DNA from: Microbulbifer taiwanensis
Lineage (GTDB): Bacteria; Pseudomonadota; Gammaproteobacteria; Pseudomonadales; Cellvibrionaceae
Reading direction: 5' to 3'
DNA length: 64,000 bases
Assembly: GCF_014904815.1 (NCBI RefSeq)
Contig: NZ_JACZFR010000025.1
Span: 248,001 to 312,000, forward strand
Position 1 is the first letter of the stretch. Every line of letters begins with the position of its first letter. This document shows, piece by piece, positions 10,705 to 63,564 of this stretch. The translations under genes were made by a program, and so were the position numbers. Below the pieces are notes generated by a model that made no database searches, had not been told where the DNA came from, and was given only the letters and a program-made list of their open reading frames with translations.

Positions 10705-10827
10705 CGTGGCGGCCCTGCTGCCGGTACTCCCTTGCGAGACACGCCGTGAATACATCCCTGTAGGCTTGTCCGCGAGGTCCCTCTCGCAGACAGTCTCGCA
10801 AGGGAGTACCGGCATCAGGGCCTTCGC
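10705..10827 (+). repeat. Palindromic element A1 (family A)
   Basis: The left arm at 10711-10740 pairs with the right arm at 10793-10822 at 29 of 30 positions; the one mismatch is CTGCTG against CTGATG. The outer 15 bases of each arm (GGCCCTGCTGCCGGT type) are shared with the other copies. The inner 15 (ACTCCCTTGCGAGAC) are unique to this copy. The loop holds a conserved segment starting ACGCCGTGAATACATCCCTG and a second hairpin TGTCCGCGAG..CTCGCAGACA. The right outer end is CAGGGCCTTCGCAT. Confidence 0.9.
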
Positions 10828-10892
10828 ATTTGACCCTGGCTTTTTTTCCCATCAACCTCTCATGCGGAGGTGGGTAGAATTCATGGGCTAAA

Positions 10893-11016
10893 TACGAAGG
10901 CGCTGATACCGGTGGCCCTTTGCGGGACCGTATGAGACAGGGATGTCGATTACGAGCGTACAGGGATGTATTCACAGCGTGTCCCGCAAAGGGCCACCGG
11001 TAGCAGCGCCGCCACG
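10893..11016 (-). repeat. Palindromic element A2 (family A, inverted to A1)
   Basis: The arm 10899-10928 pairs with 10981-11010 at 29 of 30 positions. The variable inner part is TGGCCCTTTGCGGGAC. It is read on the opposite strand to A1, with the CCTTCG end on the left and the GCCGCCAC end on the right. Its loop keeps the TGAATACATCCCTGTA segment but lacks the internal CTCGCAGACA hairpin. A1 and A2 face each other across 65 bases. Confidence 0.9.
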
Positions 11017-11111
11017 GAGCTAACTACGTAGCTCCCATGGAGGCGCCATGAACCGGCCACGGGACCCGATAACAACAACACACTGACTGACCTGTAGACG
11101 GGGGTCTACCC

Positions 11112-11954
11112 ATCAAACCGCTATTTACCCGCGGCCCCTCGCCTGAGTCCCGCATTCTCGTGCTGGGCCTGGTGGCGGCGGCGCTGATCGCGATCAGCCT
11201 CTACACCGACTGGCTGCAGCCGCTGCGCGAGCGTGTCGCCGGTTTTGTGGCCCCCTTCTACTGGATTACCGGTGCCCCCGAGCGCGTCGGCGACTGGGCC
11301 GGCGAACAGTTGCGCACCCGCGAGGAGCTGCTGGAAGAGAACAGCCGCCTCAAGCGCCAACTGCTGCTGCTGGAGCAGCGCAGCCAGTTGCTGGCAGCGG
11401 TCAAGGCCGAGAACACCCAGCTCAAGGAACTGATGAACTCCGCCGAAATGGTGGATGAGCGGGTATTGGTGGCACAGATTATCGGCGTATCGCCGGATCC
11501 TCTCGAACACGTTCTGCTGATCGACAAGGGCCGCGACGACGGTGTCGACCTGGGCACGCCGATCATGGATGCCAGCGGCCTGCTGGGTCAGGTGATCGAG
11601 GCCGGCGACTCCTCCAGTCGCGTATTGCTGATCACCGACGCCAGTCACGCCATCCCGGTACAGGTGCTGCGCAACAGCGTGCGCGCCGTGGCCGAGGGTA
11701 CCGGCGATCTCTACCGTCTCAAGCTGCGTCACCTGGCCAATACCAGCGATATTCGCGAGGGGGACCTGCTGCTCAGCTCCGGCCTTGGCGGCCGTTTCCC
11801 GGCGGGCTACCCGGTCGGAGAGGTGATCTCGGTGCAGCGCGACCCGGGTCGGGCCTTCGCCGAAGCCGAGGTGCAGCCCCGTGGACGCATGAACCGCAGC
11901 CGCTTTGTGCTGGCGGTCATCGCTGAAAGGGACGACGGCCTTGGAACCGAATAA
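11112..11954 (+). CDS. mreC: Rod-shape determining protein MreC, non-standard start
   Basis: The frame encodes the conserved MreC N-terminus IKPLFTRGPSPESRILVLGL, a membrane helix (LVAAALIAISLYTDW), a coiled coil (EELLEENSRLKRQLLLLEQR) and the periplasmic beta domain with SSRVLLITDASHAIPV and GLGGRFPAGYPVGEV. There is no ATG, GTG or TTG before the conserved IKPLF. The frame reads TGA-CCT-GTA-GAC-GGG-GGT-CTA-CCC-ATC-AAA, with a purine-rich GGGGG shortly before ATC (11112). The first ordinary start is GTG 11160, which would remove 16 conserved residues and put the membrane helix at the extreme N-terminus. I give the extended frame. MreC bridges MreB to periplasmic wall enzymes. mreD overlaps its end. 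Confidence 0.85.
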   Translation: MKPLFTRGPSPESRILVLGLVAAALIAISLYTDWLQPLRERVAGFVAPFYWITGAPERVGDWAGEQLRTREELLEENSRLKRQLLLLEQRSQLLAAVKAENTQLKELMNSAEMVDERVLVAQIIGVSPDPLEHVLLIDKGRDDGVDLGTPIMDASGLLGQVIEAGDSSSRVLLITDASHAIPVQVLRNSVRAVAEGTGDLYRLKLRHLANTSDIREGDLLLSSGLGGRFPAGYPVGEVISVQRDPGRAFAEAEVQPRGRMNRSRFVLAVIAERDDGLGTE

Positions 11955-12420
11955 TCGCTGGTTTATCGCGGCAACCGTCGCGGTGGCACTGTTGTTGGCG
12001 GTGATGCCACTGCCACACCAGTGGCTGTGGTTCCGCCCCGCCTTTACCGCGCTGCTGGTCATTTTCTGGATCACCCGCATGCCGCAGAGCCTGGGGGTCG
12101 GTTTCGCCTGGATGGTGGGCTTCCTGGAGGACCTGGTGACCGGCGCCACCCTCGGCACCCACGCGCTGGCACTGGCGGTGCTGGCCTATTTCAGCCTGCT
12201 GACCTACCAGCGCACCCGCGCTTTCAACCCGGCGCAGCAGCTGATGTGGGTGTTTATTCTGGTGGGTATCAACCAGGTGGTGGGCAACTGGGTGCACAGT
12301 CTGGCGGGCAAGCCGGTGCCGGGCCTGACTTTCCTGTGGCCGGCGCTGACCAGCGCATTGCTGTGGCCCTGGGTAGCGCCCTGGTTGAGTGTGGTGGCCG
12401 GGCGCTTGCAGGTGCGCTGA
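11941..12420 (+). CDS. mreD: Rod-shape determining membrane protein MreD
   Basis: 159 residues from TTG 11941 (MEPNNRWFIAATVAVALLLA), overlapping mreC by 14 bases, with GAAAGGGA upstream as ribosome site. There are five or so membrane helices. The family pattern is seen in RPAFTALLVIFWITRMPQS near residue 35, and in GFLEDLVTGATLGTHALAL and VGNWVHSL. MreD is an inner-membrane partner of MreC in the elongasome. Upstream in-frame codons to 11905 are not conserved. Confidence 0.93.
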   Translation: MEPNNRWFIAATVAVALLLAVMPLPHQWLWFRPAFTALLVIFWITRMPQSLGVGFAWMVGFLEDLVTGATLGTHALALAVLAYFSLLTYQRTRAFNPAQQLMWVFILVGINQVVGNWVHSLAGKPVPGLTFLWPALTSALLWPWVAPWLSVVAGRLQVR

Positions 12421-12481
12421 ATCGCCGGTCACTAAAAGGTTAAACACTGTAAAATGCCGATCATTTTTCGAGCGATACGGC

Positions 12482-12487
12482 TATAAT
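12482..12487 (+). promoter_or_regulatory. Candidate -10 box before maf
   Basis: A perfect TATAAT lies 32 bases upstream of the maf GTG, in the only gap (99 bp) between mreD and maf. The -35 region is poor, so the site may be fortuitous. Confidence 0.35.
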
Positions 12488-12519
12488 CAGCCGCTGATTC
12501 ACTAACAATAAGTAGTAGA

Positions 12520-13143
12520 GTGTCAAATACCTCCGCCGACAGCCGACTCCTTCTCGCCTCCGGCTCCCCGCGCCGCGCTGAGCTGCTGGCACAGATCGCC
12601 GTGCCCTTCTCACAGATCACTCCCTCCGTGCCGGAACAGCAGCAACCCGGCGAGAGCCCGCAGGACTATATCCGGCGCCTGGCCCACGACAAGGCGGAGG
12701 CCGGACTGCGTCTGGCCGGTGATGCGGACACCAATCTCTGGGCCCTGGGGGCCGACACAATTGTGTTGGCCGGTGATCGGGTGCTGGAGAAACCGCGGGA
12801 CTTTGCCGATTTCGAAACCATGATGCACGCCCTGTCGGGCTGCGAGCACTCGGTGTTCACCGCCCTGTGCCTGCGTTCCAGCGAGCGCCAGTTTGAGCGC
12901 CTGGTGGAAACCCGGGTGCGCTTCCGCCATCTGAACAACAAAATCATCGAGGCCTATTGGCGCACCGGCGAGCCCGCCGACAAGGCAGGCGGCTACGGCA
13001 TCCAGGGGCTGGGAGCGGCACTGGTGGAGACCATCAGTGGCAGCTACAGCAACGTGGTGGGGTTGCCACTGGAGGCGCTGGTACCGATGCTGGAGCACGC
13101 CGCCATTCCCTACTGGAATGAACTGTCGAAGGAGCGCCCGTGA
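12520..13143 (+). CDS. maf: Maf-like nucleotide pyrophosphatase (YhdE type)
   Basis: 207 residues starting at GTG 12520. The Maf signature [14 protein letters not shown] is at residues 9-22, with [20 protein letters not shown] at the second conserved block and [31 protein letters not shown] at the third. Maf proteins hydrolyse the diphosphate bond of dTTP/UTP and modified nucleotides. The stop overlaps the rng start by 4 bases (GTGA), so the two are translationally coupled. The order mreBCD-maf-rng is the standard one in pseudomonads. Confidence 0.95.
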
Positions 13144-14630
13144 GCGAGGAACTGCTGATCAATGTCGCCCCCACCGAGACCCGCGTGGCGTTGGTGGAGA
13201 ACGGCGTGCTGCAGGAAGTCTACCTGGAGCGCAGCGCCCGCCGCGGAATCGTCGGCAATATCTACAAGGGCAAGGTGGTGCGGGTACTGCCGGGCATGCA
13301 GGCGGCCTTCGTGGATATCGGCCTCGAGCGAGCCGGTTTTATCCACGCCTCGGATATAGCGCCGCTGGACGAGGAGGGTATGGAATCCCGCGATTCCACT
13401 GAAGTCGCGGATATCCGCGCCTTGGTGCGCGAGGGCCAGTCGCTGGTGGTGCAGGTGGTCAAGGATCCCATCAGCAGCAAGGGTGCGCGCCTGACCACTC
13501 ACCTGTCGGTGTCGGCGCGCTACCTGGTGTATATGCCCCAGACCCGCCATATCGGCATCTCCAACCGTATTGAGGATGAGAGTGAGCGCGAACGCTTGCG
13601 CGAGCTGGTGGACCTGGCGTCGACCAAGCTGGCGGAAGAGGGCCTGTCCGGCGACGGCGGCTTTATCCTGCGCACCGTGGCCGAGGGGGTCAGCGAGGAG
13701 GACCTTCTGCGCGACATCCCCTTCCTGTACAAGTTGTGGCGGGAGCTGGAGCAGCGTATCAAGGATCGCCCCGTACCCTCGGTCATCTACGAAGACCTGC
13801 CGCTGTTTATGCGCGCGCTGCGCGACCTGGCGCGCCCCTATACGGAAAAAATTCGCATCGATTCCCGCGAGGCCCACGGCCGCGCGGCGGAGTTTGCCGG
13901 CAAGTACGCGCCGGAGATCGCCGGGCGCCTGGAGCACTATCCGGGGGAGAGACCCCTGTTCGACCTCTACGGTGTCGAGGAGGAAATCCGCAAGGCGCTG
14001 CAGAACAAGGTGACACTCAAGTCCGGCGGCTACCTGATCATCGAGCAGACGGAGGCGATGAGCACCATCGACGTCAATACCGGTGCTTTCGTCGGCCACC
14101 GCAATCTGGAAGAGACCATCTTCAAGACCAACCTGGAGGCGGCCACCGCCATAGCACGGCAGCTGCGCCTGCGCAATCTGGGCGGCATCATCATCATCGA
14201 CTTTATCGATATGAAGGATCCGGAACACCAGCGCCAGGTGCTGCGCACCCTGGAGAAGACCCTGGAGCGGGATCACGCCAAGTCCAGCATCACCGGTGTA
14301 TCCGAGCTGGGCCTGGTGGAGATGACACGCAAGCGCACCCGCGAGTCCTTGGGCCAGATACTCTGCGAATCCTGCCCGGTGTGTGAGGGGCGCGGTAGCC
14401 TGAAGAGTGCCGAGACGGTGTGCTACGAGATTTTCCGCGAGATTATCCGCGAAGCCCGCGCCTACGACAGCGAGAAGATTATGGTGCTGGCGAGCCAGAT
14501 GGTCATCGATCTGCTGCTGGACGAGGAGTCCGCCAACGTCGCCGACCTGGAGGAGTTTATCCGCCGCCCGATACAGTTCCAGGTGGAGCCCATATACAAC
14601 CAGGAGCAGTACGACATTGTTCTGGTCTGA
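13140..14630 (+). CDS. rng: Ribonuclease G
   Basis: 496 residues, RNase E/G family without the long RNase E tail. The S1-like domain spans about 37-120 ([26 protein letters not shown]). Catalytic carboxylates lie in [10 protein letters not shown] and IIIIDFIDM. The Zn-link region shows [11 protein letters not shown] with paired Cys. RNase G processes the 5' end of 16S rRNA and decays some mRNAs. GTG start overlaps maf. In many genomes rng is followed directly by yhdP, as here (78 bp). Confidence 0.96.
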
Positions 14631-14708
14631 TCCGCGCCTTTCCGCTCAGCGAATCCTCCGCGCCCCGATGGCGCGGAGCGCATCGCCGTGCGCGCGAGGG
14701 GGCGAATC

Positions 14709-17700
14709 GTGATCATCCTGCTGCGCTGGCTGGCGCGCAAGTTCTGGCTGCTGAGCGTCAGCCTGGTGATAGCACTGGCGATACTGGTGCAGACCGGGCG
14801 CATTCTGTCGCCGCAGGTGGAGGAGTATCGGCCGCAGATCAGCGCCTGGCTGTCCGACAGTCTCGGCGTGCCGGTGCAGTTGGAGCGGATGTCCCTGCGC
14901 TGGCAGGCACTGGAAGTGGCCCTGCAGCTGGACGGCCTGCGATTGGGGGAAAAGGGCGAGGTGCAGATGGGCTACGGCCTCTTCCACCTGGACCTGTTGG
15001 CCAGTCTGTGGAACCGCGAGCTGGTGTGGAAGAACCTGCAGGTACACGACTTCAATGCGGGGCTCAGCCGTGGCGACGATGGCCGCTGGCATATCGACGG
15101 CTTTCCAGCGGCACCGGCGGAGCCGGGTGAGGATGCCGGGGAAGCGGCCATGCGCCTCGGTGACCCGGCGCGCATCTTCCAACTGGGGCCGAAGGTGGAG
15201 GTGCGCAACGCCAGCATCACCCTGCGCCTGGCGGACGGCCAGCTGGCACAGATGCAACTGCCGCAGATACAGCTGGAAAACAGCGGTTACTTCCACCGCC
15301 TCAGCGCCAGGGCCCATGTATCAAGGGGAGGCACCGGCGAAGGCGATGCCCAGCTGGATGGGGAAACCCTGCGCCTGGTTCTCGAGGGCCGCGGCAAGCC
15401 GCGCGACAGGGCCAGTTTTTCCCTCAGCGGCTATGTACAGCTGAATGAACTTTTGCTGGACGAAGATATTGTCACGTTGCTGCACCAGCTGACGCCGCTG
15501 CCGCAAGAGTACCACTGGAATGGGCGCAAGCTGGCGCGGGGCAAACTCTGGCTGCAGAGTGATGCCCAAAGCGGCTATCGCCTGCTGGGTCGTCTCAGCC
15601 TCGAGCAGCTGGCCTCAGAAGATTCCGCACCGCTGGATAGCGCCGTTGCCAATCCCGAAGGCGGAGCTCAATTGCCGGTACTGGCGCCGCTGCAATCCCT
15701 GTCCGGCGATATTTCCGGGCGCTGGCTGCCCGGTCAGGAGTGGCGCCTGGCGCTGCAGGATATCCAACTGGGCTGGCGCGATCTGCAGATGCCGCCGCTG
15801 AACCTGCAGGCGAGCAGCAGTGGGCAGGAGGGACTGCGGCTGGCCGCAGATGTGGTCGACCTGCGCGGCTGGAGCCTTATCCTCAAACAGCTGCAGTTGC
15901 TGCGGGGGCCGGCGGACGAGTGGCTGCACGCCCTCGAGCCCAGCGGCCAGCTGCAGAATATCCAGCTCTCCCGCGCCGTAGACGGGCAGATAGCGCTGAG
16001 CGCCAACCTGCGCGACGTCAGTGCCGAGGCCCACCGGGGTGCGCCGGCGGTGCAAGGGTTGAACGGCTACCTGCACCTTCAGGGCACAGACGGCCGTGTG
16101 GAGCTGGACGGCGGCGCCTTCAGTGTCCACTTTCCGAACCTGTACGGCCAGGCTTTCCAGTTCGAGCAGGCCAGCGGCACCGTCACCTGGGCGGTGGATC
16201 GGGAGGCCAATTCGGTGCAGGTACTGTCCGGCCCGTTGCAGCTGGACGGCGCCCTGGGTGATATCAGTGGCCAGTTCCTGCTTGAATTACCCTACTTTGC
16301 CCACACCCGCGCGGCGGAATTCACCCTGGCACTGGGACTGCGCGACGCGCCTGTCTCGGCCCAGGAGCAGCTGGTGCCCATCACCGTCAGCGACGACCTG
16401 CGCAGCTGGCTGAATGCTGGATTGGGCGGGAAAAATCCCGGTCGCGTCGCCAGCGCCGGATTTGTCTACCGCGGTAGCAGTTACCGGGACGGCGAGGACG
16501 CGCAGCTGCTGGCGCTGGGGGATCACCCGCAGCGGCAGACGGTGCAACTGGCCGCGGATCTGCTGGATGCCGACCTGGATTATGCCCCCGGCTGGCCGGC
16601 CGCCCGCGACGTGGCCGCCCGGTTGCTGGTCGATGACGGCAATGTGCTGGTCAATGCCAGTGCGGCGAAACTCTGGAATATCGACGCGCGGAATATCGAG
16701 GTGGGCGTGAGCCCGAATCCGGCCGGGCGCGGCTCCCTGCTCGGGGTGCGCGCGCAGTTGTCCGGCCCGGCGGCGGATGGCCTCAAGCTGCTGCAGCGGT
16801 CGCCACTGCGTCGGCAGCTGGGCAGTGCCTTTGACGACTGGCGACTGAGCGGCCAGATGCGCGGCGACCTGACCCTGTCCCAGCCCCTGGGCGGTGCCGA
16901 TCTGCCCGCGCGCCAGACGGTGCAGCTGGATCTGCAGGGCGGCGCATTGCAGCTGCAGGACCTGCGCCTGCAGATCGACGGACTTAACGGCAAGGTGGAC
17001 TACGACAGCGAGCGGGGTCTCGCCGGAACCCGCCTCGAGGGCAGCCTCTGGGGTCAGCCCCTGCAGGCGCAGATCCGACACCTCGGTGAAGGGAAAGAGC
17101 GGGATACCCAGGTGGTTGTGGACGGCAGCGCCAGAACTGAATCGGTGCATAGTTGGAGCGGTCGCCCCGAGCTGCAGTGGCTGGATGGTATCTTCGATTA
17201 CCGGGCCCTGGTCACCATCCCCGCGAAAGCCAAGGAAAAACCCTATTCGGCGATTTTCGAGCTGACATCGGAGTTGGCCGGCGTCGCGGTAAATCTGCCG
17301 GCACCGCTGGGCAAGCTGGCCGAGGACAAGGCTGATCTCGTGCTGCGGGTGCCCATCGGTGAGCAGGGCAGTCTCTTCCACCTGAATTACGGCGAGCACC
17401 TGCAGGGCCAGTTCTGGAAGGTGCAGGGGGAGCTGGAGCGCGCCGTGCTGGCGCTGAATGCCGAGGCCAGGCTGCCCTCCGAGCGCGGCCTGGCGATCAC
17501 CGGTGACCTGTCGCAGATAGACCTGTCGCGCTGGCTGGAGCTGCTGGAGGTGTACGACACAGAGCAGCCGGGTGACGACAATACCGGTAAAAGCCAGAGT
17601 CCGCTGCCCGTCGCACTGGACCTGAGTACTGACCGCCTGCTGCTGGGCGCGACGGAAATCGAGCATATCCATGTGCGCGGCCGCGGCCTGGGGGCCGACT

Positions 17701-18860: not shown

Positions 18861-18928
18861 ACCGCGGCGCCCACCGGGACTCTAATATCAGAGTGACAGG
18901 AAAATACACCGGTGGGAGGCGGTTCGAA

Positions 18929-19465: not shown

Positions 19466-19542
19466 TTATTCGATATTATCACCTGCGGCCGTCCGCGGCC
19501 GCAGTGAAGAGGTAAAACAATAATCAATAGAGGTTGGAGCTG

Positions 19543-20379
19543 ATGTCCGAGGTGGCCACGGTGCGTTTACCGAATAACCGCTACACGCTTTTCCGGGTGT
19601 TCAAATACACCGTCTACCTGCTACTCGCCTATAACGTCTACGCCTTCTTCCTGGAAAACCACGCCGCCGCCGGCGCCGTCTTCGCCGATGGCCTGCAGCT
19701 GGGCAAGGTGATCGAGGCCTACAACGACTCCATCGATACCCTGGCCTGGGTGCTGTTGCTACTGGTCTTTGAACTGGAGACCTATGTACTGGCGGACGAA
19801 AAAATCCGTGGTTGGGTCAAGTGGTCATTGAATGCGGTTTCGTCCTGCTGTTATCTCTTCATCGTCTACTCCTTCTACGGCTATGTAGCGGAATTGGCCT
19901 ATCTGACCGATCTGTTGCCAGTGGCAGCGTCGGCCTGTGAACTGGCCCAGCAGGGCGGTTGGCAGTTGGTGCTGGAGCAGGACGAGTATGTGCAATTGGG
20001 TGCGGCCAACTGCGGAGCGCTGGCGGATGGGCAGCTGCTGCGTCTGCCGGATGTGCAGATTGTAGGCAGTGCGGCGACCTGGAGTGGGATCGAGTGGCTG
20101 GCCTGGACCGATGTGGTCAACGCCGGCGCCTGGCTGCTGGTGGTCGGTATTCTCGGGTTCGAGGTGTGGCTGCAACTGCGCCACGAGCTCTCCGGCCGGA
20201 TAATGCGTTACTCGCAGTGGATCAAGGGAATCCTGTATTCAACCCTGTTCCTGTGCGCCATTTACTGGGGTTATTCCGGCAGCCTGCTGGAATTCTGGGA
20301 CGCCTTCCTGTGGCTGGTGGCCTTCTTCTTTATCGAGATGAACCTGTTCCAGTGGCAGGCTGAAACTAATGCGGAATGA
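19543..20379 (+). CDS. Multi-pass membrane protein of unknown function
   Basis: 278 residues from ATG 19543, with AGGTTGGAG just upstream. Six or so hydrophobic stretches are seen: YTVYLLLAYNVYAFFL, LAWVLLLLVFELETYVLA, CYLFIVYSFYGYVAELAYL, AGAWLLVVGILGFEVWLQL, GILYSTLFLCAIYWGYSG and FLWLVAFFFIEMNLFQW. A polar domain of about 60 residues (near 140-200) holds two cysteines (SACELAQQ, AANCGALA). I do not recognise a family. In Pseudomonas, tldD and nit genes occupy this part of the map. The last four residues TNAE and the stop come from a repeat copy (20368-20385), suggesting that the 3' end was remodelled. Confidence 0.7.
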   Translation: MSEVATVRLPNNRYTLFRVFKYTVYLLLAYNVYAFFLENHAAAGAVFADGLQLGKVIEAYNDSIDTLAWVLLLLVFELETYVLADEKIRGWVKWSLNAVSSCCYLFIVYSFYGYVAELAYLTDLLPVAASACELAQQGGWQLVLEQDEYVQLGAANCGALADGQLLRLPDVQIVGSAATWSGIEWLAWTDVVNAGAWLLVVGILGFEVWLQLRHELSGRIMRYSQWIKGILYSTLFLCAIYWGYSGSLLEFWDAFLWLVAFFFIEMNLFQWQAETNAE

Positions 20380-20528
20380 TGAATGTGGAATGCGCGATTT
20401 GATGTCGTGCTGGCTGGCAGTGCGTATGGGCCGCGCCTAAGCTCTTGGGATAGGCGGTTTGACGATTAAGCGTTGCAGGCCGTACATCCTGTTGCGCATT
20501 CCGCATTCCGCATTCATCATTCCGCATT
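20368..20528. repeat. Family B inverted pair (AATGCGGAATGATGAATG) between convergent genes
   Basis: The 18-base unit at 20368-20385 recurs as an exact reverse complement at 20511-20528. The unit supplies the final NAE-stop codons of the upstream gene on the plus strand and of yjgA on the minus strand. The 125 bases between hold GC-rich material without a gene. The structure could fold in either transcript and may act as a bidirectional terminator, though it has no T run. Confidence 0.85.
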
Positions 20529-24865: not shown

Positions 24866-25189
24866 GGATTTCTCCTTATCGAGTGCATCGCATACTGGCG
24901 CTACCCCCCGTCTGGGCGGCAACCCTACTAGGAAGTTAGCCAGAATGGAAGGATACACTCAAAGTTTGGCCGTTGGTCGCGGTCTGGGTGGTCTGGGGCG
25001 CCTGCCGATTTGTGACCAGTTGGTCTCGGGTGGTCGGGAATTGATGTGGCCGCGGGGCATTCGGTATTCCTCTGTGCCCCGATCGTAGGGTGCGCCGTGC
25101 GCTCCGTAGAGCGGTTGGTGCGCACGGCGTACCCTACCGGGAGTCCCGAGTGGTTTGCGGGTACCTTCGGCGTCGAAACTTGTTCCGGG
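24866..25189. other. rpoN-hpf intergenic region
   Basis: 324 bases without a gene between two minus-strand genes. It contains the hpf ribosome site and a strong hairpin at 25085-25137, described separately. A promoter for hpf probably lies in the remaining part but none was resolved. Confidence 0.6.
25085..25137. repeat. GTAGGGTGCGCCGTGCG inverted repeat
   Basis: The 17-base arm at 25085-25101 pairs with 25121-25137 with one mismatch. The motif GTAGGGTGCGCCGTGCG is a short repeat seen in many bacterial genomes. It lies inside the rpoN-hpf gap. Confidence 0.85.
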
Positions 25190-29479: not shown

Positions 29480-29509
29480 TCGGGGCTCGGGCGCCGCTAA
29501 GCGGGCACC

Positions 29510-29682
29510 TGGACGGCACTGCTGCCGGGGGCTTTTTACGGGACGCGGGCTAGGCGCCCCCCTTAATCCATCCTTGGAGGCTTGTCTGCGAGGTGGCCCG
29601 GCCGCTCCAGGTATTCACGGCGCCTTCGGCCCCTCTCGCAGACAGTCCCGTAAAAAGCCCCCGGCATCAGCGCCTTCGCATC
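29510..29682 (-). repeat. Palindromic element C (family A, with longer loop)
   Basis: The arm 29515-29544 pairs with 29645-29674 with two mismatches in the outer part. The variable inner segment GGGCTTTTTACGGGAC and its partner are perfect. The loop is longer than in A1: the internal hairpin arms TGTCTGCGAG and CTCGCAGACA are separated by about 47 bases containing a second TATTCACGGCG-like segment. The right end is CAGCGCCTTCGCATC. It lies between kdsD and kdsC. Confidence 0.88.
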
Positions 29683-29724
29683 AAAACTCGGTGTACTTTT
29701 CGGGTCCGCAGTCCAGGTCTCGAA

Positions 29725-31721: not shown

Positions 31722-31978
31722 CAGCTCCCGACCCGGATCGCGCAGCTGCGGCTGCGCGACCGGCCGGTTTCCAGTACACTTGCGCGCTGGCCAACCTGAA
31801 TCCGTGACTTCAGGGCGGATGCAGAGCACAAGGTATTGGCGTCACAGTGGATTTTCCGAAGAAGTGACGTATCCGCGATTACGGCCGACTGAGAAAAATT
31901 CGCTGTGGCGTCAAGAGCTTGTGCTCGGCGCCGCCATGGAGTCACGGATTCAGCTTCAAATCAACGCAATTCCCGCCT
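31722..31978. other. mlaC-ibaG gap where mlaB would be expected
   Basis: 257 bases without a recognisable gene. A STAS-domain mlaB normally sits here. A GC-rich hairpin (GCGCAGCTGCGGCTGCGC near 31740) may end the mlaC transcript, but it has no T run. Confidence 0.55.
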
Positions 31979-33503: not shown

Positions 33504-33533
33504 CGGGACTCGGAAAAGAACACCGAAGGTCAA

Positions 33534-33620
33534 AGCGAAGGCCCTGATGCCGGTAGCCGTTTGAGAAACGATTGCCGATGAGGCTGTTGAACAAACGGCT
33601 ACCGGCAGCAGGGCCGCCAC
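33534..33620 (-). repeat. Palindromic element E (family A, short form)
   Basis: The arm 33540-33563 pairs with 33592-33615, 23 of 24 bases. The outer part GGCCCTGATGCCGGTA is shared with the other copies; the inner AGCCGTTTG is copy-specific and matched by CAAACGGCT. The loop is only about 28 bases and lacks the conserved TGAATACATCCC segment. Flanks are AAGCGAA on the left and GCCAC on the right. It lies between murA and hisG. Confidence 0.85.
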
Positions 33621-33678
33621 CGGCTCTGCCTACAGAGCCTTGGCATTGGCCAACCAAAGCGATAAAACGATAACCGCC

Positions 33679-54807: not shown

Positions 54808-54894
54808 GTTGCGGCGTCTCGTTGTTGAGTGCGCCGCATTCAAGCAAGTGTGCATCGATTTATCAACTCGGGAGCGGAGAATCCCGGCGCCGGT

Positions 54895-56193: not shown

Positions 56194-56222
56194 GATTTGC
56201 TCCAATCGATATCTCGCTGTTT

Positions 56223-58211
56223 TTATTCCGCCCGGTAGACGGTCTCGCCGTCAAACCAGGTCTGCAACACCCGGGTTTCGCCGATGCGATCCGCCTGGCC
56301 CTTCTGCGCCAGCGCCACTATATCCCGGTCGACGACGATAAAGTCCGCCTTCTTGCCCGGTTCCAGCGAGCCGGTCAGCGCCTGCTGGTTGAGCAGGCGG
56401 GCGCCGTTGATGGTGTAGCTGTCTATGGCATCCAGGATCGACAGACCCTGATCCGGGTTGAAGGCGCCGGCACCGGCATCGCGGGTCACCGCGCGCTGGA
56501 TATTGAGGAAGGGGCGCGGATCGTCCGTCTCCACTGGTGCATCGGAGCCGGCGGCGACTATGCCGCCCGCCTTCATCAGGGCGCCTGCCGGGTAGACGTT
56601 GCGATAGTAGTAGCTGTCCTTTCGGTACAGTTCTTCAGACGACGCCAGTTTTTCGATAAAGGGCACCACCGTCATGTCGTACCCGGGGCTCTTTACCGCC
56701 CAGGCGAAAGTGAAGGCGACCGGAATTTTCAATTCCGACAGCCGCGCAATATCTTCGTCCGTGGCCAGTTGCAGATGGGAGATGCTGTGGCGATTGACCG
56801 GCTTTTTACCGTCGGATACCGTGGCTACGGCATCGACGGCGGTGCGCACGGCCCGGTCGCCTATCGCGTGGAAATGTACCGCGAAACCGTCTTTATCAGC
56901 CCGTTGCACGAATTCGTTGACCACCGCCCCATCGGCCAATAGTGCACCGCGGCTGCGCTGGCACTGTGACGGATGGAAGCCGTTGTCGCGAATAAACGCC
57001 TGCACCCGAGTGTCATCGGCTGCGGCCTTTTGTTCGGCACGCGCCTGTACACAGGCTTTTGAATCCAGATCCACGTAACCCTGGATTTCCAGGCGCTCAT
57101 CGCCCAACTTGTAGATCGGCTGATGGAAGTCGTGCAGCATGGCCGAATTGGGCAGCGTCGGCGGCGATGCCAGCGGATCGCCCTCGAGCACGCCGTCGAC
57201 AAACAGCTTGAGCGCATCCGCCTTGACGTTGGGTATGGAGCGGTATTTTTCCCGCGTTGCGCGCGCGTCGGCAAACAGCGCCTTGAAGTTCACTGCACCG
57301 CTTTGATCGCGGTAGTGTTCCGGCTTCAATAGCTGCGCCAGGGTGATGCGCAGGGGCACCGAGGGCTGCTTGAACAGCTCGTCGTAAAGCGGCTGCAGTT
57401 CCGGTGCCACGGCCGCGTCCTGGATCGACGTGATGCCGAGGCTGGACAGTTGCGCCGGTATCTGCCCCGCGTGTTTCATATACAGGGGCAGGTCGGCGGT
57501 CAGTATCCAGGGGCCGCCGAGCACTTCGATCACATGCTCATTGATGGCGCCGTTGGGTTCGCCCTGGGCGTCGACACCGACAAACGGCTGCAGGTCGGCG
57601 AAGTCGGACTGCAGTGTCTTGGCGGAAAGCCCGAGCCTGCGCTTGTCGCGCGTAGCAGCGCGAGCCAGGCCCGCGCTGTTGGTCGCATTGTGGTGACCGT
57701 CGTTGCCGAGCAGCACTATCGGGTGCTTAGTAGAGGCGGCGTCCAGCGCCTCGCGCAGGGTCCGCATCTGGGCGCTAGGTAAATTGTTCTCGCTGAAATT
57801 CCACTGCCGCACCGCCAGCCACTCGCCTTCCGCGGGCTTGAAGCGCTCAACGCAACCGCGCACAAACGCGGCGATCTGCGCGAGGTTTTTTCCTTCGCTG
57901 TGCAGGTTACAGCCCTCGTAGGAAATAATCCCCGCCGGGTGCACATGGGTGTCGTGCAGCCCTGGCAGTACCAGCTTGCCGTCCAGGTCGACAACCTCTG
58001 TCTGCGGTCCAATCCATTTCCTGGCGGCATCGCTGCCGCCGGTAAATACCACCCTGTCGCCGCGCACGGCCATGGCCTGCACCAGTGTCTGTTCGGCGTC
58101 GGCGGTGTAGATTTTTCCGTCCAGCAGTACCTTGTCCGCGGGTTCGGCAGCGGACGCCAGGCCGCTCAGCAGGCCGGATACGATTAACCCGGCAATCAGT
58201 TTCCGTTGCAT
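56223..58211 (-). CDS. Secreted amidohydrolase, YtcJ-like
   Basis: 662 residues with a signal peptide (KLIAGLIVSGLLSGLASAAEP). The metal-binding HxH is in LVLPGLHDTHVHPAG near residue 90, with later His in GNDGHHNAT, FHAIGDRAVRTAVDAV and HSISHLQLA, and the catalytic Asp in VAAGSDAPVETDDP. The C-terminal composite beta-sandwich has GSLEPGKKADFIVVDRDIVAL. YtcJ-like enzymes hydrolyse N-acyl or amide bonds of small molecules. It lies 14 bp from the TonB receptor, indicating a receptor-hydrolase operon. Confidence 0.87.
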   Translation of the reverse strand: MQRKLIAGLIVSGLLSGLASAAEPADKVLLDGKIYTADAEQTLVQAMAVRGDRVVFTGGSDAARKWIGPQTEVVDLDGKLVLPGLHDTHVHPAGIISYEGCNLHSEGKNLAQIAAFVRGCVERFKPAEGEWLAVRQWNFSENNLPSAQMRTLREALDAASTKHPIVLLGNDGHHNATNSAGLARAATRDKRRLGLSAKTLQSDFADLQPFVGVDAQGEPNGAINEHVIEVLGGPWILTADLPLYMKHAGQIPAQLSSLGITSIQDAAVAPELQPLYDELFKQPSVPLRITLAQLLKPEHYRDQSGAVNFKALFADARATREKYRSIPNVKADALKLFVDGVLEGDPLASPPTLPNSAMLHDFHQPIYKLGDERLEIQGYVDLDSKACVQARAEQKAAADDTRVQAFIRDNGFHPSQCQRSRGALLADGAVVNEFVQRADKDGFAVHFHAIGDRAVRTAVDAVATVSDGKKPVNRHSISHLQLATDEDIARLSELKIPVAFTFAWAVKSPGYDMTVVPFIEKLASSEELYRKDSYYYRNVYPAGALMKAGGIVAAGSDAPVETDDPRPFLNIQRAVTRDAGAGAFNPDQGLSILDAIDSYTINGARLLNQQALTGSLEPGKKADFIVVDRDIVALAQKGQADRIGETRVLQTWFDGETVYRAE

Positions 58212-58225
58212 AGTCTGTTTCCTCC

Positions 58226-60583
58226 TTATTCCCAGCGGTAGCTGGCTTCTATGGCCCAGCTCAGCGGGCGGGTGGGGATTTCGGTAAAGCTGCCCAGGTC
58301 GTCGCCGGTGACTGTGGCGAAATAGGTCTCGTCGGTGAGGTTCTTGCCTACCAGTGCCAGCTCCCAGCGCTCATCTCCAGGCAACAGGGACAGGCGCGCA
58401 TTGACCACCTGGTAACCGTCGTGGCCGTAGGCGGCGAAGTCGAGATCGCTGTTGTAGGAATCCCGCGAGGAGAGTTCATCCCTCCATGAATAGTTCAGCT
58501 GCAGTGCCGCCAGCAGGTCATTGCCGACGGAAAATTCGTAGCGCGCCTGGGCTGAGCTGCTCCACTCCGGGGCGAAGTTGCGCGGCAGCCCCTCGATGGC
58601 GCCGGGCTGCCCGGCCGGGTCCAGGGCGATGGTGTCGGAGTCGGCGATGGTGGCGTCCAGCCAGGCGGCGCCCAGCTGCAGACTGAGGCCGTCGATCGCC
58701 TGCGGCAGCCAGATCATCTCCAGTTCCGCGCCCAGGTGTTCGGCGTCGCCGAGGTTGCCGAGGCGGGTGATCGGCAGGCCGGTGGTCTCGCTGATGGTCT
58801 GGGTAAAGCCCTGCACATCGCGGTAGTCGTAGTAGAAGAGGGCGCCGTTCAGGCGCAGGCTGCGCGCCATCCAATCCGTCTTGAAGCCCAGTTCGTAGGC
58901 GTGCACCGTCTCCTCGCCGTAGGCCTCCAGCTCGTCGGCGGAGAAGGCGAAGCCGCCGAAGAAGCCGCCGGATTTGAAGCCGCGGGTGGCTTTGGCGTAG
59001 ATCAGCGCGCTGTCGCTGGGCTGCCAGTCGAGGCCGACATGCCCGGAAAAGTTGGCATCGAGGGCGTAGTCCTTGTCGACGCCGGCGATATAGAAGAACT
59101 CGCCCATGCGGTCGTAGTGGAAGGCATCGCGCAGTGTTTTGTCCTCGGCGGTGTAGCGCAGGGAGCTGCTGAAGCGCCAGGCGTCGGAGAGATACTGCTC
59201 CCACTGGCCGTAGACGGCCCAGGATTCACTCTCCTGGGTAAAGCCGCGCTCGGTCATGCCGGGGAACACCAGCAGGTTGTCGCGCAGGTCGACGACGCGG
59301 TACTCGTCGACAGTGTCCCCGGCGACGGTGGCGCCGAGCAGCCAGCTGCTGTCGTCGCTGCCGTTGGATACCAGGCGGAATTCCTGCGACCAGGATTCCA
59401 GTTTGGCACTGCCGTCCTCGTGCATCAGGCGCAGCGGCTGGCCGTCGAAGTCGAACACCTGATCGTTCTGGTATTCCAGGAAGGCGCTGATGGAGGAGAA
59501 GGTGGCGAAACCCAGGTCCCAGTTGATCTGGCCATTGAAGCCGCTCCAGTCGTTGTCGAGGGCGTTGATCGGGTTGGCGAGTACTGTGCTGCCGTCGCGG
59601 TCCTGCTCGGATGGCAGTCGGCCGGGATCTCCCGGGGTCAGTATCCAGGCGTTGGTCAGGTTGGCGAGGGTTGCGCACTGGTCGGAATCGGCGCGGCCGG
59701 CTCGGGCGGAAGCGCAGAAGTCGCCGGTTTCCGGGTCGTAGAGGGCGCGGGTCAGGCTCAGGGTGGTCTCCGACTGGTCGCGGCCGGCCTCTGCCTTCAA
59801 GAGTATTTCCAGCTCCTCCGTCGGTGCCCAGAGCCACTGGGCGCGCAGGGCGCTGAAATCGCGGTCACCGTATTCGTCATCCCCTTCGGTGGCGAGGCTG
59901 TCCTGCCAGCCGCCGCCCTGGTCGGTCATGGCGGCGATGCGAAAGGCACTGGACTCGCCGATGGAGGCGCCCGCGGCCGCTTCCAGGGTGGATCTGCCCC
60001 AGCTGCCGTAGGAGGTGGAAATGGACGCATTGAGGTCGCCGCCCAGCTCGGGGCGCGCCGAGACCACGCGCACAGCACCGCCGCTGGTGTTGCGACCGTA
60101 GAGGCCGCCCTGGGGGCCCTTCAGTACTTCCACCCGCTCGATATCGAACATACCGATACCGCCGAATACGTTGGAGGACAGGTACTGCTCGTCGTAGTAG
60201 ATGGCGGCAGTGGGGGTGTTGTTGGAGTTGAAGTCCGCCAGGCCGACACCGCGGATCACCCAGGTGGGCTGGCCGGCGCCGCGGTCGTCGTACAGTTCGG
60301 CGCCGGCGACATGTTCGGTCAGTTCCTGCAGGTTGGCACCGCCGAGGGATTTCAATTGCTCGCCGCTGAAGGCGGAGATGGCGATGGGAACTTCCTGCAG
60401 GCTCTCCGTGCGCTTCTGCGCGGTAACCGTGACCTCTTCAATCTGCTCGGCGCGGGCGCCGCCGGCTATTGCCGTGGCAACCGCCGCGCCCAGCACCGTT
60501 TTGGATAGTACCGTCCTGGAAAGTACCGCCCTGGAAAGTACCGCCCTGGAAAGTACCGCCCTGGAAAAATTTGTGGCGCGCAT
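58226..60583 (-). CDS. TonB-dependent outer-membrane receptor
   Basis: 785 residues from the second Met at 60583. A signal peptide with the unusual repeat RAVLS-RAVLS-RAVLS-RTVLS-KTVL is followed by a TonB box-like EEVTVTAQKR, plug domain (about 55-180, with RGVGLADFNSNNTPTAAIYYDEQYL and RVEVLKGPQGGLYGRNTSGGAVRVV) and a 22-strand barrel. The last strand ends SWAIEASYRWE. The close match of the plug to siderophore-type or carbohydrate receptors is not enough to name a ligand. It leads the operon with amidohydrolase and serine hydrolase, and has a 20-base palindrome upstream. Confidence 0.9.
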   Translation of the reverse strand: MRATNFSRAVLSRAVLSRAVLSRTVLSKTVLGAAVATAIAGGARAEQIEEVTVTAQKRTESLQEVPIAISAFSGEQLKSLGGANLQELTEHVAGAELYDDRGAGQPTWVIRGVGLADFNSNNTPTAAIYYDEQYLSSNVFGGIGMFDIERVEVLKGPQGGLYGRNTSGGAVRVVSARPELGGDLNASISTSYGSWGRSTLEAAAGASIGESSAFRIAAMTDQGGGWQDSLATEGDDEYGDRDFSALRAQWLWAPTEELEILLKAEAGRDQSETTLSLTRALYDPETGDFCASARAGRADSDQCATLANLTNAWILTPGDPGRLPSEQDRDGSTVLANPINALDNDWSGFNGQINWDLGFATFSSISAFLEYQNDQVFDFDGQPLRLMHEDGSAKLESWSQEFRLVSNGSDDSSWLLGATVAGDTVDEYRVVDLRDNLLVFPGMTERGFTQESESWAVYGQWEQYLSDAWRFSSSLRYTAEDKTLRDAFHYDRMGEFFYIAGVDKDYALDANFSGHVGLDWQPSDSALIYAKATRGFKSGGFFGGFAFSADELEAYGEETVHAYELGFKTDWMARSLRLNGALFYYDYRDVQGFTQTISETTGLPITRLGNLGDAEHLGAELEMIWLPQAIDGLSLQLGAAWLDATIADSDTIALDPAGQPGAIEGLPRNFAPEWSSSAQARYEFSVGNDLLAALQLNYSWRDELSSRDSYNSDLDFAAYGHDGYQVVNARLSLLPGDERWELALVGKNLTDETYFATVTGDDLGSFTEIPTRPLSWAIEASYRWE
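60502..60570. repeat. 15-bp tandem repeat in receptor signal peptide
   Basis: Units TGGATAGTACCGTCC (60502-60516), TGGAAAGTACCGCCC three times (60517-60561) and a partial TGGAAAAAT. Read on the minus strand they encode VLSRA-type pentapeptides inside the signal sequence. Confidence 0.95.
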
Positions 60584-60637
60584 CATCTTGGCCCTCTCTG
60601 GTGGTTGTGATTATTGGATTTATGACAACTGCAGATA

Positions 60638-60657
60638 AACCGAATTTTTATTCGGTT
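60638..60657. promoter_or_regulatory. Candidate operator: AACCGAAT-TTTT-ATTCGGTT palindrome
   Basis: A perfect 8-bp inverted repeat around TTTT, 55 bases before the receptor start, in AT-rich DNA. Its length and symmetry suit a TetR-type dimer. The encoded TetR regulator at 54178-54807 is a natural candidate to bind it (inference). Confidence 0.5.
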
Positions 60658-60746
60658 ATTCCACGATAAGAGCTGACTCGAGGTTAAGTCAACATTAAAA
60701 ATTTGTGAATCTGTATCTATCTGTTTTTACAGTATTTTTTATTTTT

Positions 60747-60768
60747 AAAAAGTGAAATTTTATTCACT
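60747..60768 (-). terminator. Terminator downstream of pcaB
   Basis: On the minus strand AGTGAA-TAAAAT-TTCACT is followed by TTTT. It lies 48 bases after the pcaB stop and ends the pca transcript. The weak AT-rich stem lowers confidence. Confidence 0.5.
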
Positions 60769-60815
60769 TTCCGTGTCTGAGGCCGGCGCGGCGGCGGAAC
60801 CTGAGGCCCTCACCA

Positions 60816-62141
60816 TCAGGCCATCGTTCTCCAATAATCGAGGGTGGCGCGAATAAAATGCCGCGCCGCGCCGAGATAGCATTGCGGTTGTGCCAGGTGT
60901 TCCCAATCCAGTGGAAGCTCGGTGAGGGATCGCAACTGCTCCACCAGGGGCAGGCCCTTCTGCCCGGCGAGTTCGCGGGCCCGCGCAACCAGTTGCTGCG
61001 CGCTGTTGCGGTCGCTGTGTTCGGCGAGGGCGAAGACCAGCGCCTCCGCCATGATGTCGTCCCGGCAGGTCTCCAGGTTTGCCTGAATACGGGCTCTGTC
61101 GAACGTCAATGCGGCGACTGTTTCCGCTGCCCGAGTCAGTGCGCCGGAAGTGGCGCAGACCAGCTGCGGCAGGTTCAGCCACTCGAGTGTCCAGGCAGCG
61201 CCGTCGCGCTCGTTGGCGTGGATTGTGGCGCTGTGCAGGTTGGCGAGCAGTCCCGCGCTGTGGCGCGCCAGGGCGACCAGATGCTCGGGGCTTACGGGAT
61301 TGGCTTTCTGCGGCATGGTGGAGGAGCCGCCGCTGCCGCGCAGCTTTATTTCCCCGACATCGGACTGGGTGAGCAGTATCAGGTCCTGCCCCATCTTGCC
61401 CAGGGCGCCGCAGGTCATCGCCAGCCAGTTGCCCTGTTCGATGAGACTGTCGCGCTGGGTGTGCCAGGGCGCCGGCGGCAGCGCCAGGCCGAGTTCGGCG
61501 GCGAGCGCCGCAGAGACAGCGGGGCCCCTGTCGCCGAGGGCAGCCAGGGTGCCGGCGGCGCCGCCGAACTGCAGTACGAGTAAACGCGGCCTCAGCTGTT
61601 GCAGCCGCTGCCGCTGGCGGGCGAGGGGAGCCAGCCAGTTGGCCACCTTGAGCCCGCCGAGGGTGGGCACCGCCCACTGGGCGCGCGTGCGCGCCACCAT
61701 GACCGTGTCCATTTCCCGCTCGGCCAGGTCCGCCAGGGCGTCGCCCAGGGTTGCGAGAAGTTGTTCGAGCCTGTCGCAGGCGCTGCCGAGGCGCAGTACC
61801 AGGGCGGTATCGACAATATCCTGGCTGGTGGCGCCCCAGTGCAGGTGGGAGGCCGCGTGTTCGGGCAGGGCCGCTCGCAGTTGCTTTACCAGCGCGGGCA
61901 CCACTACGCCGTCCTTGCGGCAGGCCGCCGCCAGCGCGGCTGGTGCGGGTGTCAGCTCGCCCAGTGTCCGGTCTATTGCCCCGGCGGCAGCGGCGGGAAT
62001 CAAGCCGAGCCCGCCCTGTACTCTTGCCAGTGCGCGCTCGACGCGAATCATCGCACGCAGTTCGGCGCCGTCACTGAACAGGTCGGCCACCTCGGTATCG
62101 GCAAAGGCGGCGCCGTAAAGTTCCGAATCGAAACCGAGCAT
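60816..62141 (-). CDS. pcaB: 3-carboxy-cis,cis-muconate cycloisomerase
   Basis: 441 residues of the fumarase/aspartase superfamily. The family loop is RGSGGSSTMPQKANPVSPEHLVALAR near residues 265-290. Other blocks are HLHWGATSQDIVDTALVLRL and MVARTRAQWAVPTLGGLKVA. PcaB lactonises 3-carboxymuconate in protocatechuate breakdown. It lies three bases after pcaF on the same strand and ends before the receptor's upstream region. Gene order pcaJ-pcaF-pcaB is typical. Confidence 0.9.
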   Translation of the reverse strand: MLGFDSELYGAAFADTEVADLFSDGAELRAMIRVERALARVQGGLGLIPAAAAGAIDRTLGELTPAPAALAAACRKDGVVVPALVKQLRAALPEHAASHLHWGATSQDIVDTALVLRLGSACDRLEQLLATLGDALADLAEREMDTVMVARTRAQWAVPTLGGLKVANWLAPLARQRQRLQQLRPRLLVLQFGGAAGTLAALGDRGPAVSAALAAELGLALPPAPWHTQRDSLIEQGNWLAMTCGALGKMGQDLILLTQSDVGEIKLRGSGGSSTMPQKANPVSPEHLVALARHSAGLLANLHSATIHANERDGAAWTLEWLNLPQLVCATSGALTRAAETVAALTFDRARIQANLETCRDDIMAEALVFALAEHSDRNSAQQLVARARELAGQKGLPLVEQLRSLTELPLDWEHLAQPQCYLGAARHFIRATLDYWRTMA

Positions 62142-62144
62142 GGT

Positions 62145-63362
62145 TTAGGCCCTTTCCAGCGCGATGGCGATGCCCTGGCCGACGCCGATACACATGGTGG
62201 CTAGGGCGTATCTGGCGTTGCGCTGGCCCAGTTCCAAGGCCGCAGTGCCGGTGATACGGGCGCCGGAGGCGCCGAGGGGATGGCCCAGGGCGATGGCACC
62301 GCCGTTGGGATTTACGTGTGCGGCATCGTCCTCGAGACCCAGCTGGCGCAGACAGGCGAGGGCCTGACTGGCGAAGGCTTCGTTGAGTTCGACAATATCG
62401 AAATCCGCTACGCGCATATCCAGCTGCCGGCACAGTTTTCTCGTGGCGTTGGCCGGTCCCATGCCCATGATGCGCGGTTCGACGCCGGCGCTGGCGCCGC
62501 CGACTATTCGCGCTATGGGCGTCAGCCCGTAGCGGCGCACGGCATCGTCGGAGGCGACGATCAGCGCGGCGGCGCCGTCGTTGACGCCGGAGGCATTGCC
62601 GGCGGTGACTGTGCCACTTTCCCGGCCATTTCCCAGAAAGGGAGTGGGCAGTTTCGCCAGGGCTTCCAGTGTGGTGGCGGGGCGCGGGTGTTCATCCCGT
62701 TCTACTAGCAGCGGTTCGCCCTTCCTGCGCGCTATAGAGACAGGGGTGATTTCCCGCGCGAGGCGCCCGCTGTCGATGGCGCCGGCGGCGCGCAGCTGGG
62801 AGCGCAGGGCGAAGGCGTCCTGGTCGGCCCGGGATATGGAAAACTGTTCGGCGACATTCTCGCCGGTCTCCGGCATGGCATCGACGCCGTACTGTTTTTC
62901 CATCAGTGGATTCACGAAGCGCCAGCCGATGGTGGTGTCGTGTATCTCGGCCCGGCGCGAATAGGCGATGTCCGCCTTGGGCATCACCAGCGGTGCGCGG
63001 GACATGCTCTCGACGCCGCCGGCCAGGATCAGCTCCGCCTCGCCGCAGCGGATGGCGCGCGCGGCGCTGATCAGCGCGTCCATACCGGAGCCGCACAGGC
63101 GGTTGATGGTGGTGCCGGGCACGGAGGTGGGATAGCCGGCGAGCAGCAGCGACATCCTGGCCACATTGCGGTTGTCCTCCCCGGCCTGGTTGGCGCAACC
63201 GAAAATAACGTCGTCGATGGCTTCCAGGTCCAGTCGCGGATTGCGCTCGGCCAGGGCGCGCAGCGGTACCGCGCCCAGGTCGTCGGCGCGGACCTGGGCC
63301 AGGGCGCCGGCAAAGCGGCCGATCGGGGTGCGGATATAGTCGCAGATCCAGGCGGATTTCAT
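62145..63362 (-). CDS. pcaF: Beta-ketoadipyl-CoA thiolase
   Basis: 405 residues of the thiolase family. Active-site Cys in [14 protein letters not shown] near residue 92, His in [17 protein letters not shown] near 355 and second Cys in [13 protein letters not shown] near 390. Start [21 protein letters not shown] is the typical N-terminus of PcaF (3-oxoadipyl-CoA thiolase). It splits beta-ketoadipyl-CoA into succinyl-CoA and acetyl-CoA. Separated from pcaJ by 239 bases with palindromic element D. Confidence 0.92.
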
Positions 63363-63439
63363 CGTTGTAACCTTTCTCTTTATGTTCTTGCTTTGCTATT
63401 GCTTGCTCATCGGCGGCCAGAAAAGAACGCCGGGGCTAG

Positions 63440-63564
63440 ATGCGAAAGCCCTACTGCCGGGGGAAGTTTGCGGGACTGTCTGCGAGAGGGACCTCGCAGA
63501 CAAGCCTCCAGGGATGGATTCACGGCGTGTCCCGCAAACTTCCCCCGGCAGTAGGGCTGCCACC
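63440..63564 (-). repeat. Palindromic element D (family A)
   Basis: The arm 63447-63476 pairs perfectly with 63529-63558 (30 of 30). The variable inner part is GGGAAGTTTGCGGGAC. The loop carries the internal hairpin TGTCTGCGAG-AGGGAC-CTCGCAGACA and the segment CCAGGGATGGATTCACGGCGT. Ends are TGCGAAAGCCC on the left and GGGCTGCCACC on the right. It is between pcaF and pcaJ. Confidence 0.92.

Follow-up and report, generated by a model that had tools for sequence, protein, structure and literature searches.

Five palindromic intergenic elements in a 64,000-nt stretch of the Microbulbifer taiwanensis genome (contig NZ_JACZFR010000025.1; the whole stretch analysed, hereafter the window) belong to a large family of dispersed repeats with a common fold. 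We label them c1 to c5. From the outside in, a full copy consists of a stem, P1, of ~22-30 pairs that closes a hairpin, P2, and then a second hairpin, P3, before the other P1 arm completes the stem. P2 carries an ANGGAN loop in most copies. The P3 hairpin is short, has a UUCAC bulge and a GC-rich base, and reads for instance UAC-AGGGAU-GUA. We observed covariation of this fold, strand specificity, conservation of the loops, dispersal and turnover between species. On balance, a full copy is probably a structured element of a single strand, most likely RNA, that docks CsrA/RsmA at the P2 and P3 loops.

Fold, covariation and loop sequences

A sequence-only reading of the window had picked out five palindromes and described compensatory change within them. 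All five are present where it placed them, and the compensatory pattern was far above chance in an alignment of 12 M. taiwanensis copies (c1 to c5 and seven others) on a structure of 39 pairs. Both sides changed in 22 of the 39 pairs, compared with 10.0 in shuffled alignments, standard pairs made up 95.2% compared with 83.0%, and the covariation score was 0.369 compared with 0.140; none of 500 shuffles reached these values, and slid controls all scored below 0.09. The further claim that the inner 9-16 bases of each arm differ in every copy needs narrowing: the arms do vary and stay paired, but only ~5-7 pairs are truly free within the genome, the inner ten pairs (TTTGCGGGAC-like) and the outer fourteen being largely shared between its copies.

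The P1 stems of other genera have no sequence relation to each other and yet are paired. In 44 selected stems from these genera, Watson-Crick matches made up 94% per pair, compared with 37% after shuffling, and three or four Watson-Crick types occurred at positions 4-22. The 44 were kept from 77 by a score of at least 18, at least 22 pairs and GAC at the junction, with duplicates removed, so the 94% describes good stems. We also aligned 34 of 55 reference sequences, hand-picked for diversity and including eight from M. taiwanensis. With the structure given, covariation was 0.507 compared with 0.137 in shuffled alignments (reached in 0 of 500; slid controls at most 0.102), and both-side changes were found in all nine P2 pairs and in six of eight inner P1 pairs. 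With no structure given, RNAalifold recovered P1, P2 and the tip of P3 from the same sequences. The P3 base is weak, its third pair being present in 3 of the 34 rows.

The arms of orthologous copies, a comparison suggested by the sequence-only reading, changed mostly by point substitutions, often through G.U. At seven orthologous places, 20 of 203 P1 pairs had changed, with 9 one-sided changes between Watson-Crick and G.U pairs, 4 double changes from one Watson-Crick pair to another, 6 between a Watson-Crick pair and a mismatch and 1 between G.U and a mismatch, which makes 16 of the 20 one-sided. These seven are few; they are the cleanest alignable pairs, chosen by us from a larger set, and the relatives G012 and G022 gave none, as judged by eye their copies stand at different places. 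Base-by-base change of this kind is the way an RNA helix evolves, and it favours selection for a hairpin over a copying process. One arm could in principle be rewritten from the other, by template switching or by gene conversion inside the palindrome, which would keep the arms complementary without selection. Stems that are nearly perfect yet different between loci would fit such arm-to-arm copying, as would the apical modules that differ between c2 and its counterpart in the relative G016. Since most ortholog changes are single bases, however, copying is not needed, and we regard it as very improbable. Rather, the sequence of P1 would be free as long as it pairs, and would drift by point mutation, G.U intermediates and compensatory changes. 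The free block of 5-7 pairs differs much between loci and less between orthologs; old loci and renewal at arrival would both fit this contrast.

The sequence-only reading had recognised hairpins without registering the two that carry ANGGAN loops, which are the most informative feature of the element. A P2 hexaloop of the form ANGGAN with at least three flanking pairs was found in 45 of 64 M. taiwanensis copies and in 57 of 65 copies from other genera, whereas the other strand of that stretch had ANGGAN in only 1 of the 64 and in none of the 65. P3 contains CANGGANG in 59 of the 64. In 106 copies from five genomes of the genus, 86 of which were readable, the P3 stem takes the forms UAC/GUA, UCC/GGA and CCC/GGG. 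In vitro selection for CsrA/RsmA binding gave the loop motif RUACARGGAUGU, with ANGGAN as the recognised loop (PMC3791407), and the P3 stretch of c2 at 10958-10969, GUACAGGGAUGU, matches this consensus at 12 of 12 positions. P1 would serve as a rigid scaffold that closes P2 and P3, each presenting ANGGAN, the CsrA/RsmA recognition element. A csrA match is present in the M. taiwanensis genome, and in 24 of 26 genomes that carry the core of the element compared with 187 of 219 genomes overall; with csrA nearly universal, such co-occurrence carries little information.

Strand specificity

Mismatches in P1 are strand-asymmetric. Read on the strand with the GGA loops, the 64 M. taiwanensis copies have 57 G.T and 9 A.C mismatches, and the 65 copies from other genera have 51 and 17; the latter are those with a stem score of at least 12 among the 77 of 81 core copies analysed, stretches under 120 nt having been dropped. 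When each distinct context was counted once, the ratios were 43:9 (p 2e-6) and 48:17 (p 2e-4), respectively. The GGA strand also had the lower predicted RNA energy in 59 of the 64 and 54 of the 65 copies. Folding of a single strand is therefore favoured over a DNA cruciform. Neither a double-stranded cruciform nor copying between the arms would prefer one strand, and both are disfavoured by the excess of G.T over A.C, the orthologs likewise counting against a symmetric cruciform or arm conversion. The sequence-only reading had left the choice between a hairpin under selection, as RNA or cruciform, and a copying process. The hairpin stands in the M. taiwanensis genome, across genera and in the seven orthologs, while the cruciform is disfavoured and copying is unneeded.

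It is possible, though improbable, that the element has a structural role in mRNA, as a stabiliser or as a hairpin for processing or termination, and that the long stem does all the work while the loops have no role. The stems are long and stable, copies lie close to gene ends, and the short form c4 retains P1 without P2 and P3. Against a purely structural role, the P2 stem changes while ANGGAN is kept in most copies, P3 has three stem forms, and antisense orientation to the neighbouring genes is common among the copies.

Several observations weigh against CsrA docking by a transcribed copy. The chief one is that the asymmetry of mismatches is the same in copies antisense to both neighbours (G.T:A.C 29:7) and in sense copies (45:8; Fisher p 0.77), a comparison that took in 57 of 66 other-genera loci, eight with a stem score below 12 and L194, which resembles L187, being left out. 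Because the antisense excess is as strong as the sense excess, mRNA read through from a neighbouring gene is insufficient on its own as an explanation. Moreover, the excess of copies in sense to the upstream gene is weak, both in M. taiwanensis (36:26, p 0.25) and in the other genera when unfiltered (39:27); the near-gene figure of 34:13 (p 0.003) for the other genera belongs to a filtered subset. The loops have exceptions as well. Among the 64 M. taiwanensis copies, P2 shows only AGGA in 3, only GGA in 7 and no GGA in 9, five copies from other genera have only AGGA, and both P2 and P3 are missing from c4 and from one further M. taiwanensis copy. ANGGA was present in P3 in 82 of the 86 readable copies of the genus by hand tally, a count biased by a parser that read 86 of 106 copies and required GG in the loop, and an exact match to P3 was the criterion for choosing the copies of other genera, which makes P3 conservation there circular and leaves only P2 to count. 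The ANGGAN hairpin loop of CsrA-binding RNA is found in the element, with the P3 loop closed to four bases by RNAalifold through an A-U pair, and one hairpin with a 4-nt loop was reported as a weak binder (PMC3791407). In the 34-sequence alignment, the weakest of five measures, the number of both-side pairs, was 16 compared with 12.4 in shuffled alignments and was reached by 3 of 500. Two core-bearing genomes, G122 (88% complete) and G249 (98% complete), have no csrA match listed. Finally, the small RNA (sRNA) family Ysr224, discussed below, is annotated on the strand without GGA loops, in which it differs from the element as we read it.

The constraint on antisense copies means either that many copies have their own transcription, that the constraint predates their arrival, or that the folded strand is single-stranded DNA (ssDNA). 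A mutation bias linked to transcription was also considered as the cause of the G.T excess and is disfavoured, sense and antisense copies being alike.

Distribution, turnover and the copies in the window

A covariance model (R1), a search the sequence-only reading had proposed, was run on the M. taiwanensis genome and on related genomes and uncovered a large family. In the 4.8 Mb genome of M. taiwanensis itself there are at least 64 distinct places at E 0.01, reduced from 111 rows, as palindromes match on both strands, with the best 150 of 3255 candidates scored. Matches at E 1e-6 were found in 26 of 38 genomes (M. taiwanensis included), in 4 of 14 genera. Counts in 25 genomes of the same genus ranged from none to at least 84 (best 84 candidates per genome scored), and the relative G021 has at least 137 copies (best 150 of 2155 candidates scored). 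A core pattern with 27 fixed bases matched at least 113 stretches in named genomes, the matches listed including Microbulbifer, Marinobacter, Zobellella, Alishewanella, Pseudomonas, Sedimenticola, Marinobacterium and Aquisalimonas, and a looser pattern matched 26 of 219 genomes of Gammaproteobacteria while its reversed control matched none. The core, with stems that are unrelated but paired, occurs across many Gammaproteobacteria. One of the Zobellella copies shares its contig with pieces of a group II intron (L151:3473-5226).

Copies come and go between species. Of the 11 copies on the contig of the window, R1 found none at nine comparable sites in the relative G013, where the murA-hisG site holds a decayed remnant, and one at nine sites in G024. 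In a look for target-site duplications, flanks at empty sites mostly failed to align up to the element among the alignments listed. Two gaps, murA-hisG and mreB-mreC, were each read in 30 of 41 genomes. In the former, G024 has a counterpart of c4 with a different stem and G016 an ordinary long copy in its place, besides the remnant in G013, and no full copy was seen by eye in the remaining genomes read. In the latter, G016 has the identical arrangement of an inverted pair with different stems (by eye), and G041 (L301) has a palindrome with GGGCCCTGCCGC outer arms and a different middle. In G017 (L289) this gap holds one copy whose two ends are both of the CGCC type; it looks like the outer halves of an inverted pair joined together. 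The M. taiwanensis copy at C78:237339 has ends that are symmetric in a similar way.

Could the family be non-autonomous mobile DNA, with the folded ssDNA of one strand recognised during copying by a transposase or nuclease that contacts the GGA loops, and with a resemblance to CsrA sites that is convergent? We consider this unlikely, if worth keeping in view. The strand constraint is independent of gene orientation, copies turn over at comparable sites in G013 and G024, and the feet at the copy ends, ATGCGAAG and CGCCAC in the flank profile of 63 of 64 M. taiwanensis copies, are conserved within the genus together with the outer stem. In addition, all 14 close pairs among the 137 copies of G021 are inverted (11 minus-plus and 3 plus-minus) and none is tandem. 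Across genera, in contrast, stems and ends are not shared (by eye), and the core, as represented by L201, found no match in plasmids or phages at the limits used. The sequence-only reading had also raised the possibility of remnants of one recent insertion sequence (IS). Conservation between genera lies in the middle and not at the ends, the reverse of the conserved terminal inverted repeats and variable middle of an IS-derived miniature inverted-repeat transposable element.

Movement of the IS200/IS605 type leads one to expect a bias towards the lagging strand. No replication-strand bias was found in G021, which has 75 copies on the lagging and 62 on the leading strand (p 0.31), with the origin placed at the better-scoring of two DnaA-family matches (743.7 kb) and the chromosome assumed to be 4.215 Mb, and we rejected capture of lagging-strand ssDNA. 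The spread of copies along G021:C1 is uneven: the eighth closest to the assumed origin has 32 and the farthest eighth has 1.

An origin from repetitive extragenic palindromic (REP) sequences and their associated transposases (RAYTs) was rejected after inspection of the four Y1_Tnp genes of M. taiwanensis. No linked transposase emerged there, and no family copy was recognised beside any of the four. GTAG REP pairs flank two of them and account for the sole nearby R1 matches (weak, at 29.8 and 22.7 bits); beside the remaining two no such pair appeared in the scanned stretches (a 16-nt repeat of 81% in L083, none in L086). The GTAG-tagged pairs stand just upstream of the two RAYT-type genes, at L084:2252-2319 and L085:1637-1711, and are unrelated to the element family.

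The orientation of a copy was set by the common foot and core, with ATGCGAAG on the 5' side and CGCCAC on the 3' side, by which c1 and c3 read on the minus strand and the other three copies on the plus strand. Positions of P1 arms in the window come from an inverted-repeat search, the orientation of genes around the copies from heuristic gene calling, and the gene names from the sequence-only reading, in agreement with our reading of the translations. The first two copies form an inverted pair between mreB and mreC. With its feet, c1 spans 10697-10836 (-) and is antisense to both genes. Its P1 arms lie at 10711-10740 and 10793-10822 (30 nt, 97%), its P2 hairpin, with loop AGGGAC, at 10767-10792 (-), and its P3 hairpin at 10743-10765 (-), the last of these read as UAC-AGGGAU-GUA with the UUCAC bulge and a GCC/GGC base. 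Both hairpins of c1 were read from the sequence, P2 in line with its covariation in the 34-sequence alignment and P3 with the P3 forms of the family. In c2, at 10885-11024 (+) and sense to both neighbours, the P1 arms are at 10899-10928 and 10981-11010 (30 nt, 97%). Its P2 at 10929-10954 (+) has the loop AGGGAU and tandem G.A mismatches in the stem, and is identical to the P2 of alignment row L035; its P3 at 10956-10978 (+) holds the stretch that matches the CsrA consensus.

The third copy, c3 (29501-29688, -), lies in the kdsD-kdsC gap in sense to both neighbours, with P1 arms at 29512-29544 and 29645-29677 (33 nt, 91%), P1 itself being taken as 29515-29544/29645-29674, and an apical part enlarged by inserted hairpin modules. 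Recurrent modules of this sort (GGGGGGCGCCTAGCCC; GGGCCGAAGGCGCC...; AGGGCCGGCCCCGCG...) are inserted at fixed apical places at C28:193596, C78:32832 and C14:10959 as well as in c3. The short form c4 (33526-33629, +), without P2 and P3, is sense to both neighbours in the murA-hisG gap; its P1 arms are at 33540-33563 and 33592-33615 (24 nt, 96%). In the pcaJ-pcaF gap, c5 (63433-63572, +) is antisense to both neighbours and has every base of its P1 arms paired (63447-63476 and 63529-63558, 30 nt, 100%). Its P2 at 63477-63502 (+) carries the loop AGGGAC and is found in row L020 of the 34-sequence alignment, and its P3 at 63504-63526 (+) reads UCC-AGGGAU-GGA, in which both sides of the stem differ from UAC/GUA while the loop is unchanged. 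The claim that the elements would fold in the mRNA between co-directional genes therefore fits c2, c3 and c4, which are sense, but not c1 and c5. Three other repeats lie in the window: inverted repeats of AATGCGGAATGATGAATG-like units at 20368-20528, a different palindromic repeat; nested inverted repeats of 26 and 35 nt at 31793-31956, upstream of the murA region; and a GTAG-REP-like GTAGGGTGCGCCGTGCGC hairpin at 25085-25137.

Known families and possible consequences of CsrA binding

No Rfam family matched the window at its gathering score. On the folding strand, the closest likeness is to TwoAYGGAY (RF01731), in which, as here, a poorly conserved outer stem encloses a pair of GGA-loop hairpins. 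CsrA binding has been proposed for TwoAYGGAY, and tandem G.A in one of its stems has been reported (PMC4333381); it is listed from Gammaproteobacteria among others (PMC2864571). In the element, adjacent G.A and A.G mismatches stand in P2 at columns 17/33 and 18/32, in a subset of 7 of 34 rows each. One locus of eight tried, L406, aligns to TwoAYGGAY end to end on the folding strand with 36.8 bits, below the gathering score of 43; no match was found in the M. taiwanensis genome at E 0.05, a weak negative since the control had no match either. In place of the long second stem of the Rfam consensus, the element has the short P3 and its UUCAC bulge. The strict AYGGAY loop is also not kept, P3 being mostly AGGGAU and P2 including AGGGAU, AUGGAU, AUGGAC and AGGGAC, and the element differs further in its high, dispersed copy number. 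The element may be a relative of TwoAYGGAY and may work as TwoAYGGAY is thought to.

Ysr224 (RF02770), a Yersinia sRNA, shares the core on the opposite strand. L201 aligns to it end to end with 40.2 bits (gathering score 70), six of eight further loci gave weaker matches (22-29 bits, E 0.008-0.56), and so did four of 11 other loci and c1 (E 0.82), all below gathering and all opposite to the GGA-loop strand. Ysr224 is multicopy in Y. ruckeri (PMC12112432) and is listed in the top 20 of annotated bacterial sRNAs by prevalence (PMC9029176); the literature passages covered contain no link between it and CsrA.

Like REP and REPIN sequences, the element forms dispersed intergenic palindromes, often in inverted pairs. 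REPs measure 20-40 bp and are defined by a GTAG foot (PMC3733652), whereas the element is much longer and does not have that foot. Inverted GTTCGCCC/GGGCGAAC repeats resembling REP pairs enclose copies such as C28:67521, C7:17476 and C37:2072, giving them the look of a REPIN-like unit. ERIC, YPAL and other enterobacterial palindromic repeats are similar by description, being intergenic long hairpins of ~100-170 bp (PMC2759123, PMC2267715); ERIC is listed in E. coli (PMC2267715), whereas the L201 core is unmatched there at the limits used. The ANGGA hairpin loops recall those through which CsrB, CsrC, RsmX, RsmY and RsmZ bind CsrA/RsmA (PMC3791407, PMC4333381). The element differs from these RNAs in having two sites per copy, many loci and a long closing stem. 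CsrB, CsrC, RsmX, RsmY and RsmZ are sRNAs of a single locus with many sites. Rfam also gave matches to microRNA families of animals and plants, which we took for generic long hairpins and disregarded. A literature search that took in few subscription journals returned no description of the family as dispersed CsrA-type elements.

The element is real, strong and widespread, and the CsrA reading is a testable step beyond the sequence-only reading. If it acts as we propose, the folding strand would be transcribed, a CsrA dimer would bind both loops, and control of the local transcript or titration of CsrA would follow. The consequence could be local, for the host transcript, or global, through CsrA titration, and both are compatible with the data. 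A bolder and speculative idea, which we hold to be rather unlikely, is that a class-wide mobile family spreads paired CsrA docking loops, tens to more than 100 per genome, and thereby rewires unrelated operons or buffers free CsrA, while being itself selected as folded RNA whatever the direction of its neighbours, for instance through its own transcription or movement in RNA form.

Whatever their function, the stems are a large natural dataset on the evolution of RNA helices, in which one fold is built from many unrelated sequences. If CsrA does bind, there would be a function to offer for Ysr224 and a reason to recheck its strand. Dispersed repeats would then redistribute the targets of a global regulator, and the amount of free CsrA would depend on the number of transcribed copies.

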